Shown here piece by piece: positions 5,655-35,777 of a DNA stretch of 35,777 nucleotides (the stretch's first letter is position 1; each line of letters opens with the position of its first letter). The DNA is from a virus. The stretch lies in IMG/VR virus record IMGVR_UViG_3300036817_000152, positions 1-35,777 of that record; one strand, given 5' to 3'. The translations under genes and the position numbers were made by a program. Below the pieces are notes generated by a model. It saw nothing but the letters and a program-made list of their open reading frames with translations, made no database searches and was not told where the DNA came from.

Positions 5655-7346
5655 AGCCTGGCAGGCCCCTCCTATGTTTCGGACAGCGTAAACGCCGCGG
5701 CCCAGCGAACCATGAATCTGGTTCCGGAGGTCATCGAACCAGGCAACGAACCGGTGAAAATGGTGCTCTATGGCAGACCGGGGATCAAGCTGCTTACTAC
5801 GCTCTCGAATCCCACGATCCGCGCGCTATGGGCCGGTGGTGGCCGGCTGTTCGCGATTAACGGCCCCAAACAAACGGAAATTCATTCGGATGGCACCTTC
5901 ACCGACCAGCCCGGTACGCTGGCCGTGGGCACTGCTCCTCCCGATTGGGCGCAGGTGTTTTCGAACGGCCATCAACTGATGATCATTTCCGGCGGCTACG
6001 TCCACTACAACAACGGTGCCGGGGTGGTGGCGGCTCACTTTCAGATGTCCGGGACAGGCACGACAGTCGCCGCCAACAATACTCTCGTCTACGTGAGCGG
6101 GCCGGCGTTTCAATCGTCGTGGGCAGGCCTGCCGATCCTGATCGATGACGTCGATTATGTGATCGACTCCGTCGACCTGGTGAACAACTGGATCTATCTC
6201 AACACCGCGCAGCCGACGGTGAATGCTTCCAATGTGAATTGGTCGCTCGCGGGTGGTGCCGCGGTGGACGCCCGGACCGGTGGCTTTATCGACGGATACG
6301 GCGTGATCAGCCGGGTGCCCCGGCCGGATCTGCCTCAGACTCAGGACCCCGGCCGGCAGTTCAATATCAGCGGCCTGCTCGATTTTACGTACTGGGACCC
6401 GCTCATGTTCGGAGTAAAAGAAGGCCGCGGCGATTACATCAACTCGGTTCTCTGCGATCACGAGCAGCTCATCATCTTTGGCACGGAGAGCACAGAGATC
6501 TGGCAGAACGTAGGGGCTACGGCGGATAATCTCTTTCCGTTCCAGCGCATCCCGGGTGCGTATATCCAGGATGGCACCGTGGCGATTTATGCGCCTTGTT
6601 CGGTCGGGCCGACGTTCTGCTGGCTGGGTGGAGGCCCGGATGGTCAGACGCGCGCCTATCGCGCCGACGGGCTGCAGCCGACGAGGATCAGCACGCACGC
6701 CCAGGAGTGGGACTGGAACGCGCCCGGTTTCCGGGTGAATGACGCCTCGTCGTACTCGTACCAGAATGCCGGCCATCTGCACTGGGTGATTAATTTCTGG
6801 CAGCAGCAGCAGACCTGGGTTTACGACACCAATACCGGTTTGTGGCACGAGCGCGCGTTCTGGGATCCGGTCGGCTTGGACTTCCTGCGCTATAAGGGCT
6901 GGTTTCATGTTTTCATCCCGGAGTGGGGCGATGGCGGCACGCATATCGTAGCCAGTCCGGAAAGCGGAAAGATCTATGAGATGTCATCGAACCTATACGA
7001 TGACGATGGTACGGCGATCGAGTATGTACGCGCGTTTCCCCACTTGATCAATGAGAACGAGTACGCGTATCACCATCGCCTGGAGGTAATGGCAGAGATG
7101 GGTGCGCTCGGCCCAAGCGATCCGGTTCCACTGCTGGGCTTGGACTGGTCGGACGATCACGGCCACACGTTCCTTAGTGCACTTGGACGCCAGGTGAATA
7201 TGCCTGGTGCGGGCAACTATACCTGGCGCGCCGTTTTCCGGCGGTTAGGGAAAGCGCGCGACCGGGTTTACCGGGTGGGAATCACCGCCCATACCAAAGT
7301 GGCGCTGGTCGATACGTATTTGGAAGTGACGCAAGGCTTCGCGTAA
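5646..7346 (+). CDS. Packaged-DNA stabilisation / tail hub protein, P22 gp10-like
   Basis: This is a 566-residue protein starting MKISLAGPSYVSDSVNAAAQ, then RTMNLVPEV. In P22 gp10 (472 aa) caps the tail after gp4 and retains packaged DNA. Family-typical segments are YGRPGIKLL near residue 40, the DFTYWDPLMFGVKEG region, EQLIIFGTESTEIWQNVGA and the following FPFQRIPGAYIQDG, and the aromatic C-terminal domain ending in YRVGITAHTKVALVDTYLEV. The protein is a beta-propeller-like array of short strands. No clear ribosome site precedes ATG 5646, so it is probably translated by coupling. It is longer than P22 gp10, mainly at the C-terminus. Confidence 0.85.
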   Translation: MKISLAGPSYVSDSVNAAAQRTMNLVPEVIEPGNEPVKMVLYGRPGIKLLTTLSNPTIRALWAGGGRLFAINGPKQTEIHSDGTFTDQPGTLAVGTAPPDWAQVFSNGHQLMIISGGYVHYNNGAGVVAAHFQMSGTGTTVAANNTLVYVSGPAFQSSWAGLPILIDDVDYVIDSVDLVNNWIYLNTAQPTVNASNVNWSLAGGAAVDARTGGFIDGYGVISRVPRPDLPQTQDPGRQFNISGLLDFTYWDPLMFGVKEGRGDYINSVLCDHEQLIIFGTESTEIWQNVGATADNLFPFQRIPGAYIQDGTVAIYAPCSVGPTFCWLGGGPDGQTRAYRADGLQPTRISTHAQEWDWNAPGFRVNDASSYSYQNAGHLHWVINFWQQQQTWVYDTNTGLWHERAFWDPVGLDFLRYKGWFHVFIPEWGDGGTHIVASPESGKIYEMSSNLYDDDGTAIEYVRAFPHLINENEYAYHHRLEVMAEMGALGPSDPVPLLGLDWSDDHGHTFLSALGRQVNMPGAGNYTWRAVFRRLGKARDRVYRVGITAHTKVALVDTYLEVTQGFA

Positions 7347-17897: not shown

Positions 17898-18560
17898 ATG
17901 GCCGACGCTATCAAGTTCGAATTCGATCAACCCCTAGAGGTTGCCCTGAAGTTTACCGAGCCGAAGCTGGTTCCCTCCAATTTCGGCGACGATCGCGCCA
18001 TGTATTCGCTCACCGACGAGCGCGTCATGTTCGTCGATCAGTTGACCGCCGCGCGGATCAAAAGCCTCGCCGTCCAGCCGGGCGAGGCCTTCTTCATCTG
18101 CAAAACCAAGGCCGGCCGCCTGACCGAGTACCAGGTCTACCGCGAGAGCGATGAGCCCCAGCCGGCCGTGCCGGCGCGTGCCGGTGTGGTCGCCTTCGGA
18201 GGCCATAAGAAGACCTTCCCGCCGCTAAAGGCCGCGTTGCCCGAGCGCCTCTATCACGCACCGGAAGACACCACGCTCGAGGATCAGCTGCGGGCGTCTA
18301 TCGATATGGTCGAGCGCAAGAAGCTGACCGCCAGGCTCGACGAGCATCCCGCACCTGTCCCGGTGCCTGCTCCCGTCGAACGCAAACCGGCGCAGTGGGC
18401 ATCCACTCTGCTGGCCCAGACCAATCAGTTGGTCGACTGCTACGCCGCAGCACTCGAACACGCCGCCCAGCACGGCATCCAGGTTAAGGCGGAAGACGTG
18501 CGCAGTCTGCTGGTCACGAGCTTTATCCAACTGTCGCAGAACAAAGGGCGGGCCGCGTAA
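17898..18560 (+). CDS. Hypothetical protein, 220 aa
   Basis: ATG 17898 has AGGAGG just upstream. The first 90 residues look like a compact beta-rich domain (IKFEFDQPLEVALKFTEPKL, MYSLTDERVMFVDQL, EAFFICKTKAG) and may bind an oligomer or ligand. A Pro-rich linker follows, then a C-terminal helical domain (LLAQTNQLVDCYAAALEHAA, DVRSLLVTSFIQLSQN). No family recognised. The stop TAA (18558-18560) is followed with no gap by a hammerhead-type RNA element. Confidence 0.7.
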   Translation: MADAIKFEFDQPLEVALKFTEPKLVPSNFGDDRAMYSLTDERVMFVDQLTAARIKSLAVQPGEAFFICKTKAGRLTEYQVYRESDEPQPAVPARAGVVAFGGHKKTFPPLKAALPERLYHAPEDTTLEDQLRASIDMVERKKLTARLDEHPAPVPVPAPVERKPAQWASTLLAQTNQLVDCYAAALEHAAQHGIQVKAEDVRSLLVTSFIQLSQNKGRAA

Positions 18561-18622
18561 GTCGAAACCCGCTCGCAGCGGGTCTCGCGGAGCTGGCCTG
18601 CCGCGACTGAAGATGACAGGCC
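18561..18622 (+). ncRNA. Putative type II hammerhead ribozyme, copy A
   Basis: All core elements are in hammerhead order. GAA (18564-18566) leads into stem III ACCCGCT/AGCGGGT (18567-18583, CGC loop) with the expected A15.1-U16.1 closing pair. H17 is C18584, the predicted cleavage site. Stem I is TCGCGG/CCGCGA (18585-18606, 10-nt loop). CTGAAGA (18607-18613) matches CUGANGA. The open helix II would be GTC (18561-18563) with GAC (18615-18617), leaving one unpaired U. Loop I GGCCT (18595-18599) can pair with AGGCC (18618-18622), as in hammerheads with a stem I/II contact. It starts directly after a stop codon. The weak point is the 3-bp helix II. Confidence 0.85.
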
Positions 18623-18638
18623 GAAAAGGAACAACGAA

Positions 18639-18866
18639 ATGAAACGTATGCTGATTTTGGCCGCGCTTGCTGCGGCCCTGGCGCTTAGTTTGATGGCTCA
18701 GATTTATCCGGCTCCGTCACCGTGGCCGCAGCCGATGCCGCTTCCGCAACCGATGCCACTGCCGGCGCCGCCCCCCATACCGGCTCCCACGCCGCCGCCA
18801 ATGTGCCACGACCAGATGATCTGCACACCCGTGTACGGCTGCCGTTACGTCACCATCTGCAATTAG
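18639..18866 (+). CDS. Small secreted or lipoprotein-like Pro-rich protein between two ribozymes
   Basis: This is a 75-residue protein. A classic signal peptide (MKRMLILAALAAALALSLMA) is followed by a Pro-rich repeat stretch (repeated QPMPLP units) and a Cys-containing tail (CHDQMICTPVYGCRYVTIC, four Cys). Two disulphides would suit an extracytoplasmic location. The start ATG 18639 follows AAAAGGAAC, which is the 3' edge of ribozyme A. The stop TAG overlaps the first base of ribozyme B. If both ribozymes cut, this gene sits alone on a 307-nt RNA. Function unknown. Confidence 0.7.
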   Translation: MKRMLILAALAAALALSLMAQIYPAPSPWPQPMPLPQPMPLPAPPPIPAPTPPPMCHDQMICTPVYGCRYVTICN

Positions 18867-18930
18867 TCGAAACGGGGAGTCAGTCCCCGTCCGTCACGGC
18901 CGGCCGCGTGGCGCTGAAGATGACAGGCTG
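18866..18930 (+). ncRNA. Putative type II hammerhead ribozyme, copy B
   Basis: This has the same layout as copy A with different stem sequences. GAA is at 18869-18871; stem III is ACGGGGA/TCCCCGT (18872-18890, GTCAG loop), again with A15.1-U16.1. H17 is C18891, the predicted cleavage site. Stem I pairs 18892-18898 with 18907-18913 (7 bp, one G-U). CTGAAGA is at 18914-18920, then one U, and GAC (18922-18924) pairs GTC (18866-18868). Loop I GGCC (18902-18905) can pair GGCT (18926-18929). The stems differ from A yet stay paired, which is covariation in favour of a real RNA. It begins on the last base of the stop codon. Confidence 0.85.
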
Positions 18931-18939
18931 AAGGAACCA

Positions 18940-19104
18940 ATGGATATGGATCTAACGATGAGAATCCGGGATATGCTCCGGGCCAATGAAGACGAGGCCG
19001 ATCGCCTCGAGCGCGTCGCGCTGGCCTACCTGCTCGACTCAGCCAACGCGCGGCTGCGGGACCTCGAGGAGCGCGTCCGGCGGCTGGAGCGGCCAGCGGA
19101 TTAG
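18940..19104 (+). CDS. Small Arg/Leu/Glu-rich coiled-coil protein, 54 aa
   Basis: ATG 18940 follows AAGGAAC, the same leader that follows ribozyme A. The product is an amphipathic helix with repeated LRDLEERVRRLERP-like heptads and an acidic N-terminal half (NEDEADRLERVALAYLLDSA), so a short coiled coil is likely. It converges with the XRE repressor and overlaps its end by 4 bp. Function unknown. Confidence 0.6.
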   Translation: MDMDLTMRIRDMLRANEDEADRLERVALAYLLDSANARLRDLEERVRRLERPAD

Positions 19105-19361
19105 TGCGCTTTCAGTTTATAGTTCCGGTCGATGGCGCGCACCAACTGGTCCGGAGTCACTTTTAAAGCCCGGGCCAGACGCCACAAAGTGAAGATCCTG
19201 GGCTGGTGCTCCCCCCGTTCGAGGGCACCCCAGTAGCTGCGGTCCATGCCAATTTCCAGACCGAGCGCCTCCTGGCTCGATTGCGGTCTCCCCTTCTCGC
19301 GGAACTGCCGCACGGTTTCCGCCAGCGCCACCAGCAGAATCTTCAGATCGTCCTCAGGCAA
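19101..19361 (-). CDS. XRE-family HTH repressor-like protein
   Basis: This is an 86-residue single-domain Cro/cI-type HTH: SSQEALGLEIGMDRSYWGALERG is helix 2, turn and recognition helix, followed by PRIFTLWRLARALKVTPDQLV. The start must be TTG 19361 because TAA lies in frame just upstream. It faces the 15-bp repeats at 19403-19446, probable operators. It is the best candidate for the lysogeny repressor, with the opposite-facing PAS-RHH gene across the control region. Confidence 0.8.
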   Translation of the reverse strand: MPEDDLKILLVALAETVRQFREKGRPQSSQEALGLEIGMDRSYWGALERGEHQPRIFTLWRLARALKVTPDQLVRAIDRNYKLKAH

Positions 19362-19402: not shown

Positions 19403-19446
19403 AGACTTATCTTTCCTAGACTTATCTCTCCTAGACATATCTCCCA
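19403..19446. repeat. Three tandem 15-bp repeats (operator candidate)
   Basis: Copies are at 19403-19417 (agacttatctttcct), 19418-19432 (agacttatctctcct) and 19433-19446 (agacatatctccca, degenerate and one base shorter). They lie 42 bp ahead of the repressor start. Spacing of 15 bp fits repeated binding sites for a small HTH or ribbon-helix-helix protein; an iteron-like origin role is the alternative. Confidence 0.65.
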
Positions 19447-35070: not shown

Positions 35071-35119
35071 CAACCACAGAGTACCGCATTGCGCTACTGA
35101 CTAAAGCTACTCATTGACT

Positions 35120-35777
35120 ATGACAGAAGACAACACTCCCGCCATTGAGCAGGGGACCGGCACGCCGGTGGATCAGATTCCTACCGATTTCAAGGAGTAT
35201 GACCACTGGCGGCGCACGGGTGAACTGCCCAAGGCCGAGGAACAAAAACCGTCCGCGACCGCGCCCGCGAGCGCCCCACCCGTTGGGGAGCCGGAAGCGC
35301 CGGTCAAAACCGCCCCGGACTCGGAACCGGATTATTCCCAGGAGATGGAAGGGACAACGCCGCAGCGGCCCAGTTCGCGGCAGCGGCGCATCGACCGGCT
35401 GACCCGGGAAAACGCCGAACTGCAAAAGCGCCTGGAAGCGCTTGAGCAGAAAGCGGCGTCAACTGTGGCTCCGCCTGTCGAAACACCGGCTCCCGTCGGC
35501 CGCCCCGATCTCAAGGACTTCAAGACGCTGGAAGAGTATACCGAGGCAGTCACCGAGTACAAGCTCAACCAGCGGGCGGCGCAGTATCAAGCGGACCAGG
35601 AAAAACGGGCCGCCGAAACCGCTGTGCGCACCCTCCAGGACAGTTGGGCGGCCAAAGATGACGCCGCCGCCAAGGCTCATCCCGATTACCGCGAGCTGAT
35701 GGACTCGACCGAGATCCCTGTTGGTCCCGGGGTTTTGGCTGCTCGTCAGGCGCTACTCGAGGAAGACAATGGCGCGG
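35120..35777 (+). CDS. Scaffolding protein, N-terminal part (3' truncated by window edge)
   Basis: ATG 35120 starts 219 residues before the window ends. Acidic, Pro/Ala-rich N-terminus (MTEDNTPAIEQGTGTPVDQI, then PTDFKEYDHWRRTGELP), then a coiled coil (SRQRRIDRLTRENAELQKRL, then EALEQKAA) and another helix (FKTLEEYTEAVTEYKLNQRA). P22-like scaffolds are about 300 residues, and the missing end is at 1-205. Together they would make about 286 residues plus the unseen middle. Confidence 0.75.
   Translation, partial: MTEDNTPAIEQGTGTPVDQIPTDFKEYDHWRRTGELPKAEEQKPSATAPASAPPVGEPEAPVKTAPDSEPDYSQEMEGTTPQRPSSRQRRIDRLTRENAELQKRLEALEQKAASTVAPPVETPAPVGRPDLKDFKTLEEYTEAVTEYKLNQRAAQYQADQEKRAAETAVRTLQDSWAAKDDAAAKAHPDYRELMDSTEIPVGPGVLAARQALLEEDNGA

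Follow-up and report, generated by a model that had tools for sequence, protein, structure and literature searches.

Two type II hammerhead motifs flanking a small gene in a P22-like phage record, with predicted processing of its transcript

Hammerhead ribozymes that flank single genes in prophages were described by Perreault (2011; PMC3088659), whose text proposes a role in mRNA processing, and De la Pena (2017) likewise reported them, with small open reading frames (ORFs) of unknown function. The locus described here lies in the IMG/VR virus record IMGVR_UViG_3300036817_000152, all 35,777 bases of which were analyzed (hereafter the window). Two hammerhead motifs on the same strand, HH1 (18560..18625, +) and HH2 (18865..18932, +), flank an ORF at 18639-18866, and these were the only type II copies found when the whole record was scanned. 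Phages with this flanking arrangement were already reported in 2011, and the window is a well-supported further example; compared with the text of Perreault (2011) alone, it differs from the prophage clusters described there only in its genes and in the sequence of the copies.

Two other systems share features with the locus. RiboJ-type insulators also place a self-cleaving hammerhead 5' of a ribosome-binding site and thereby standardize the 5' leader, but they are engineered, carry an added 23-nucleotide (nt) hairpin and sit at the transcript start, whereas the window holds natural type II motifs with a pseudoknot, located between cistrons. The position before the ribosome-binding site would fit a RiboJ-like insulator role, in which cleavage raises or standardizes expression of the gene downstream. 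In plant retrozymes each end of the unit bears a hammerhead and unit-length RNA is released, as is predicted for the window, but theirs are type III and lie in retroelement repeats, whereas the window copies differ from one another in sequence and belong to no repeat element. As a compact locus of two ribozymes and one gene with defined predicted cuts, it makes the processing idea testable on one short construct. Comparison with relatives adds a measured rule, that the ribozyme takes up the stretch separating the stop codon from the ribosome-binding site, as well as a recurrent subtype with an inserted U that the Rfam model under-scores.

Evidence for two type II hammerhead motifs

HH1 and HH2 resemble the Rfam family Hammerhead_II (RF02276; Perreault, 2011) in the core CUGANGA/GAAA, the A15.1-U16.1 pair, C at H17, closed stems I and III, an open helix II, and a pseudoknot between loop I and the tail, which is common in the family though not universal. 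Both copies carry the core strings CTGAAGA and GAAA; CTGAAGA is an ordinary hammerhead core, as position 7 of the core is variable. In HH1, the GAA string (18564-18566) is followed by stem III (18567-18573/18577-18583, 7/7 paired, including A15.1-U16.1 as A18567-T18583), by C17 at 18584, 3' of which cleavage is predicted, by stem I (18585-18590/18601-18606, 6/6 paired), and by the CTGAAGA core (18607-18613). HH2 has the same order: GAA at 18869-18871, stem III at 18872-18878/18884-18890 (7/7 paired, with A18872-T18890 as A15.1-U16.1), C17 at 18891 with cleavage again predicted 3' of the C, stem I at 18892-18898/18907-18913 (7/7 paired, one G-T), and CTGAAGA at 18914-18920. Hairpin loops close stems I and III in both copies, while helix II is open.

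The loop I half of the HH1 pseudoknot, TGGCCT (18594..18599), pairs with the tail half AGGCCG (18618..18623), which lies directly 5' of the ribosome-binding site AAAAGGA. This gives 6 base pairs (bp) including one G-U, and a seventh pair would compete with helix II. The HH2 pseudoknot has 5 bp, one of them G-U, between CGGCC in loop I (18901..18905) and GGCTG in the tail (18926-18930).

Against the RF02276 gathering score of 37 bits, HH2 scored 41.8 bits, above the threshold, and HH1 scored 36.0 bits, 1 bit below it. We also built a covariance model, R1, from the alignment of 47 phage relatives of comparable length that share the inserted base, leaving the window out. Both copies scored far above background with this model (HH1 73.5 bits, E 2e-18; HH2 63.8 bits, E 9.4e-16). 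Strings taken from the window served as seeds in the search for relatives, so that frequencies among these relatives are not a census, and the IMG/VR contigs are assemblies and often fragments. The 14-mer CTGAAGATGACAGG was dropped as a search string for being too unspecific.

Across the 47 relatives, the structure pairs in 95.6% of cells (67.5% in shuffles), two-sided changes number 246 cells (71 in shuffles), and the covariation score is 0.723 (0.182 in shuffles). Shifting the pairing partners by 1-3 columns abolishes the covariation signal. The pairing figures for stems I, III and helix II are partly built in, because the relatives were preselected by a pairing descriptor. The pseudoknot was no part of that selection; it pairs in 89% of cells, and its inner three pairs show 10, 19 and 15 two-sided changes.

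Further controls rule out a chance fold as the origin of HH1 and HH2. When the core strings were held fixed and the interior shuffled, equally good stems arose in 2 and 3 of 20000 trials. Among relatives sampled by core strings only, stems I and III formed in 127 of 153, and in none after shuffling. A strict hammerhead descriptor gave 412 matches in 5.17 megabases of fetched loci vs. 1 in the reversed loci, a count that is not a density because those loci were chosen by core-string patterns. Together, the RF02276 scores, the window-free model R1 and the covariation in relatives, including that of the pseudoknot, support the assignment of HH1 and HH2 as type II hammerhead motifs, with self-cleavage predicted.

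The first-pass annotation, made from the letters of this DNA, had placed two type II hammerheads here and proposed the Rfam type II covariance search; their positions agree with the sequence and with both models. Every stem pair it listed (III 7/7 in both copies, I 6/6 and 7/7 with one G-U) was recovered, the cleavage positions it named 3' of 18584 and 18891 are the same as ours, and its possible loop I pseudoknot proved to covary in relatives. It was likewise correct that the setting is a phage and that the pair flanks one gene. That a tandem pair around one gene is unusual, as it also held, does not stand: such pairs were reported in 2011 and are common, with IMG/VR arrays reaching 10-11 copies.

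The inserted U in helix II

Helix II has 3 bp in each copy and is formed by identical strands, GUC and GAC (18561-18563/18615-18617 in HH1; 18866-18868/18922-18924 in HH2). Between A9 and G10.1 stands an extra U, written as T at 18614 (HH1) and 18921 (HH2), after which the closing pair G10.1-C11.1 is present (G18615-C18563 and G18922-C18868). The RF02276 model handles this U as an insertion and scores the motif lower for it, and the text of Perreault (2011), figures and alignments aside, does not mention it. In relatives that have a base at this position it is almost always U, and C occupies H17 in 94% of the inserted-U relatives, as it does in HH1 and HH2.

When bacterial and archaeal genomes were scanned with this position left free (any base or none), the motifs passing the stem test had no insertion (19), U (16) or A (1). 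Over all motifs collected, the insertion depends on how helix II begins: where it starts U-C/G-A, U is present in 166 and absent in 56, a ratio inflated by the seed pattern, whereas G-C/G-C starts have no insertion in 127 and U in 2 (2/129). The pair adjoining the closing pair covaries among the 47 relatives (39 U-A, 8 C-G); the register of helix II is therefore fixed and the inserted U left unpaired. The 3-bp helix II with one unpaired U in both copies, which the first-pass annotation gave as the weak point of its proposal, is thus really there; as a defect it does not hold up, and judged by these comparisons it is a recurrent subtype. Inserted-U hammerheads are likely under-counted, because RF02276 under-scores them.

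Placement between genes and predicted processing

The upstream gene (17898..18560, +; 220 amino acids, aa) terminates in a stop codon that ends at position 1 of HH1. The ORF between the ribozymes (18639..18866, +; 75 aa) has a signal peptide, a proline-rich linker and a Cys-rich end, and its product is predicted to be a secreted, proline-rich protein. HH2 is followed by a gene for a 54-aa, coiled-coil-like protein (18940..19104, +). Each copy takes up the interval from the upstream stop codon to the following ribosome-binding site: the stop ends 3 nt (HH1) and 2 nt (HH2) before G12, the next start codon lies 32 nt (HH1) and 26 nt (HH2) after C3, where the CTGAAGA core begins, and the predicted cut falls 24-25 nt past the stop and 54 nt (HH1) or 48 nt (HH2) before the start. 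The same fit is seen in relatives, where the upstream stop codon ends within 8 nt of G12 in ~65% of ~390 motifs, compared with ~4% of random positions that have one within 10 nt; the median stop-to-cut distance is 27.5 nt and the median cut-to-start distance 56 nt. All copies are on one strand in 77 of 78 multi-copy loci. The flanked ORFs, with a median length of 93 aa, are small and unrelated (243 clusters among 306), and a shared function was not apparent, as no listed Pfam or PHROG family was common to two or more of the 110 flanked proteins.

We consider it most likely that two intercistronic type II hammerheads process a polycistronic phage transcript. Each copy would fold during transcription and then cut, 3' of C18584 and C18891, so that one message would yield three complete single-gene mRNAs. 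The middle product, delimited by the two predicted cleavage sites (18585..18891, +), would be a 307-nt mRNA with the complete ORF for the 75-aa protein and its own ribosome-binding site. At its 3' end the upstream piece would carry the stem III hairpin and a 2',3'-cyclic phosphate, while the 5' end of the downstream piece would be a 5'-OH followed by the hairpin of stem I and the pseudoknot. Ends of this kind would be expected to uncouple translation and decay of the neighboring genes and standardize the 5' leader, as in the engineered insulator RiboJ. RNA with a 5'-OH is cut poorly by 5'-monophosphate-stimulated RNase E. The motifs, their pairing and their placement are read from sequence; cleavage by both copies, and an effect of the end chemistry and hairpins on decay or translation, are inferred. 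According to the text of Perreault (PMC3088659), similar tandem hammerhead arrays cleave in vitro, and one does so in E. coli. Hammerhead insulators cut ~85-94% of transcripts in E. coli (PMC7536230), and the model in that study assumes faster decay for uncleaved mRNA.

Several observations weigh against this proposal. The text of Perreault (2011; PMC3088659) reports that 4 of 18 consensus-like hammerheads were inactive, and helix II in HH1 and HH2 is short and interrupted by the inserted U. Nearest-neighbor folding without pseudoknots prefers other structures, with a best fold of -26.7 vs. -20.9 kcal/mol for the hammerhead in HH1 and -25.6 vs. -24.0 kcal/mol in HH2, though such free energies are uninformative for these motifs because pseudoknots are not modeled. 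Compact phage genomes could by themselves account for the close spacing of stop and start. Only one of 50 TerL-related records, mostly fragments, has a hammerhead (G042), as does one of 50 RecT-related records (G067), and the RecT relative with a 92% identical RecT (L235, a 12-kilobase, kb, fragment) has none. The hammerhead is therefore not essential, since close relatives mostly lack the motif.

This patchy occurrence, along with the HH1 score just below the Rfam cut-off, is what one would expect of decayed or neutral passengers, that is, inactive remnants of an element that was once mobile or useful. We regard that as improbable, since every pair and core base is kept in both copies despite different stem sequences, covariation among relatives is strong, and a hammerhead in G042 likewise precedes a gene for a secreted protein. 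That record contains a homolog of the window upstream gene (29% over 217 aa, same strand) with a hammerhead nearby (locus L635). The hammerhead lies 34 nt, counted from C3, before a gene with the signal peptide MKRLLTLFALLAILAVAGSAQ, which is similar to its counterpart MKRMLILAALAAALALSLMAQ in the 75-aa product of the window. In locus L636 of the same record (G042:C1:9000-18568), the hammerhead stands directly before a 124-aa signal-peptide gene. Where a hammerhead is present, its place before a secreted-protein gene may thus be kept, judging from these two phages.

The position of the stop codon allows another explanation, in which a terminating ribosome sits over the core and stem III and keeps the ribozyme from folding, so that cleavage would occur mainly when upstream translation is low and the ribozyme would act as a sensor of translation, not as a constitutive cutter. 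A stop 2-3 nt before G12 in both copies, its counterpart within 8 nt in most relatives, and a cut 24-25 nt beyond the stop would suit such gating. The spacing is also explained by compact gene packing, however, and hammerheads usually fold quickly; we consider gating unlikely, if the least unlikely of the alternatives. Marginally less likely again is the stronger claim that the stop is set against the core on purpose and that, with the inserted U, these motifs form a distinct, translation-sensing uncoupler type of hammerhead. Very improbable, in our estimate, is a circular mRNA made when the ends of the 307-nt RNA (stem I and the core half of HH1, and the core half of HH2) rebuild a hammerhead around the ORF and ligate, or when a host ligase joins them. 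The identical GUC/GAC strands of HH1 and HH2 would permit this, the chemistry of the cut ends is suitable in principle, and retrozymes use flanking hammerheads in this way. Yet circular or spliced products were sought and none found, according to the text of Perreault (2011; PMC3088659), cross-copy pairing is possible in 19 of 55 neighbors with differing helix II, with no sign of selection, and the needed core is not favored in the free fold of the 307-nt RNA. Control by a ligand, as in a natural aptazyme-like switch, seems the most remote of these options, as both copies are minimal, with short loops and no extra conserved domain. Processing of the transcript by self-cleavage remains the explanation we favor.

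Relatives, arrays and phage setting

The 75-aa ORF matched no Pfam or PHROG family and had no tblastn match among phage records. For the 220-aa upstream gene, a direct scan of viral contigs found no homolog, and one was found later via TerL relatives. No DNA relatives of the hammerhead block were found among GenBank phages. In L636, the hammerhead region adjoins the homolog of the window gene at 17898-18560 and a RecB/Cas4-like nuclease gene.

Portal, coat, transglycosylase, RecT and Gp157 genes identify the record as a P22-like podovirus. A scaffolding-like gene between portal and coat is apparently split over the window ends (1-205 and 35114-35776), and no terminal repeat of at least 15 bases was found there. 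Because both ends appear to hold pieces of one gene, the contig may represent an almost complete genome whose opening point falls within the scaffolding-like gene. No other RNA family in the window scored above threshold; weak matches to L25-leader, Guanidine-III and similar models were treated as chance. Tail to tail with the hammerhead operon lies a small helix-turn-helix repressor-like gene (19101-19361, -). Between it and a PAS-domain gene, the short tandem repeat AGACTTATCTCTCCT (19403-19443, 2.7 copies) is a possible operator region.

Larger arrays occur elsewhere in IMG/VR. RF02276 has 11 matches in one record of 71.8 kb and 10 in another of 34 kb; the arrays of 11 and 10 found by Rfam, each on one strand, are in IMGVR_UViG_3300019889_000009 (L142 and L179) and IMGVR_UViG_3300043313_000271 (L178). 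A 7-kb locus of IMGVR_UViG_3300017605_000570 (L484) has 11 pattern matches; between its positions 2817 and 6749, at least 11 type II hammerheads with small ORFs between them fit in less than 4 kb, which is among the longest arrays found. Another contig (L211) contains three type II hammerheads together with a RAGATH-28 RNA (5674-5758, -), and a link between hammerheads and this little-known RNA class is possible there.
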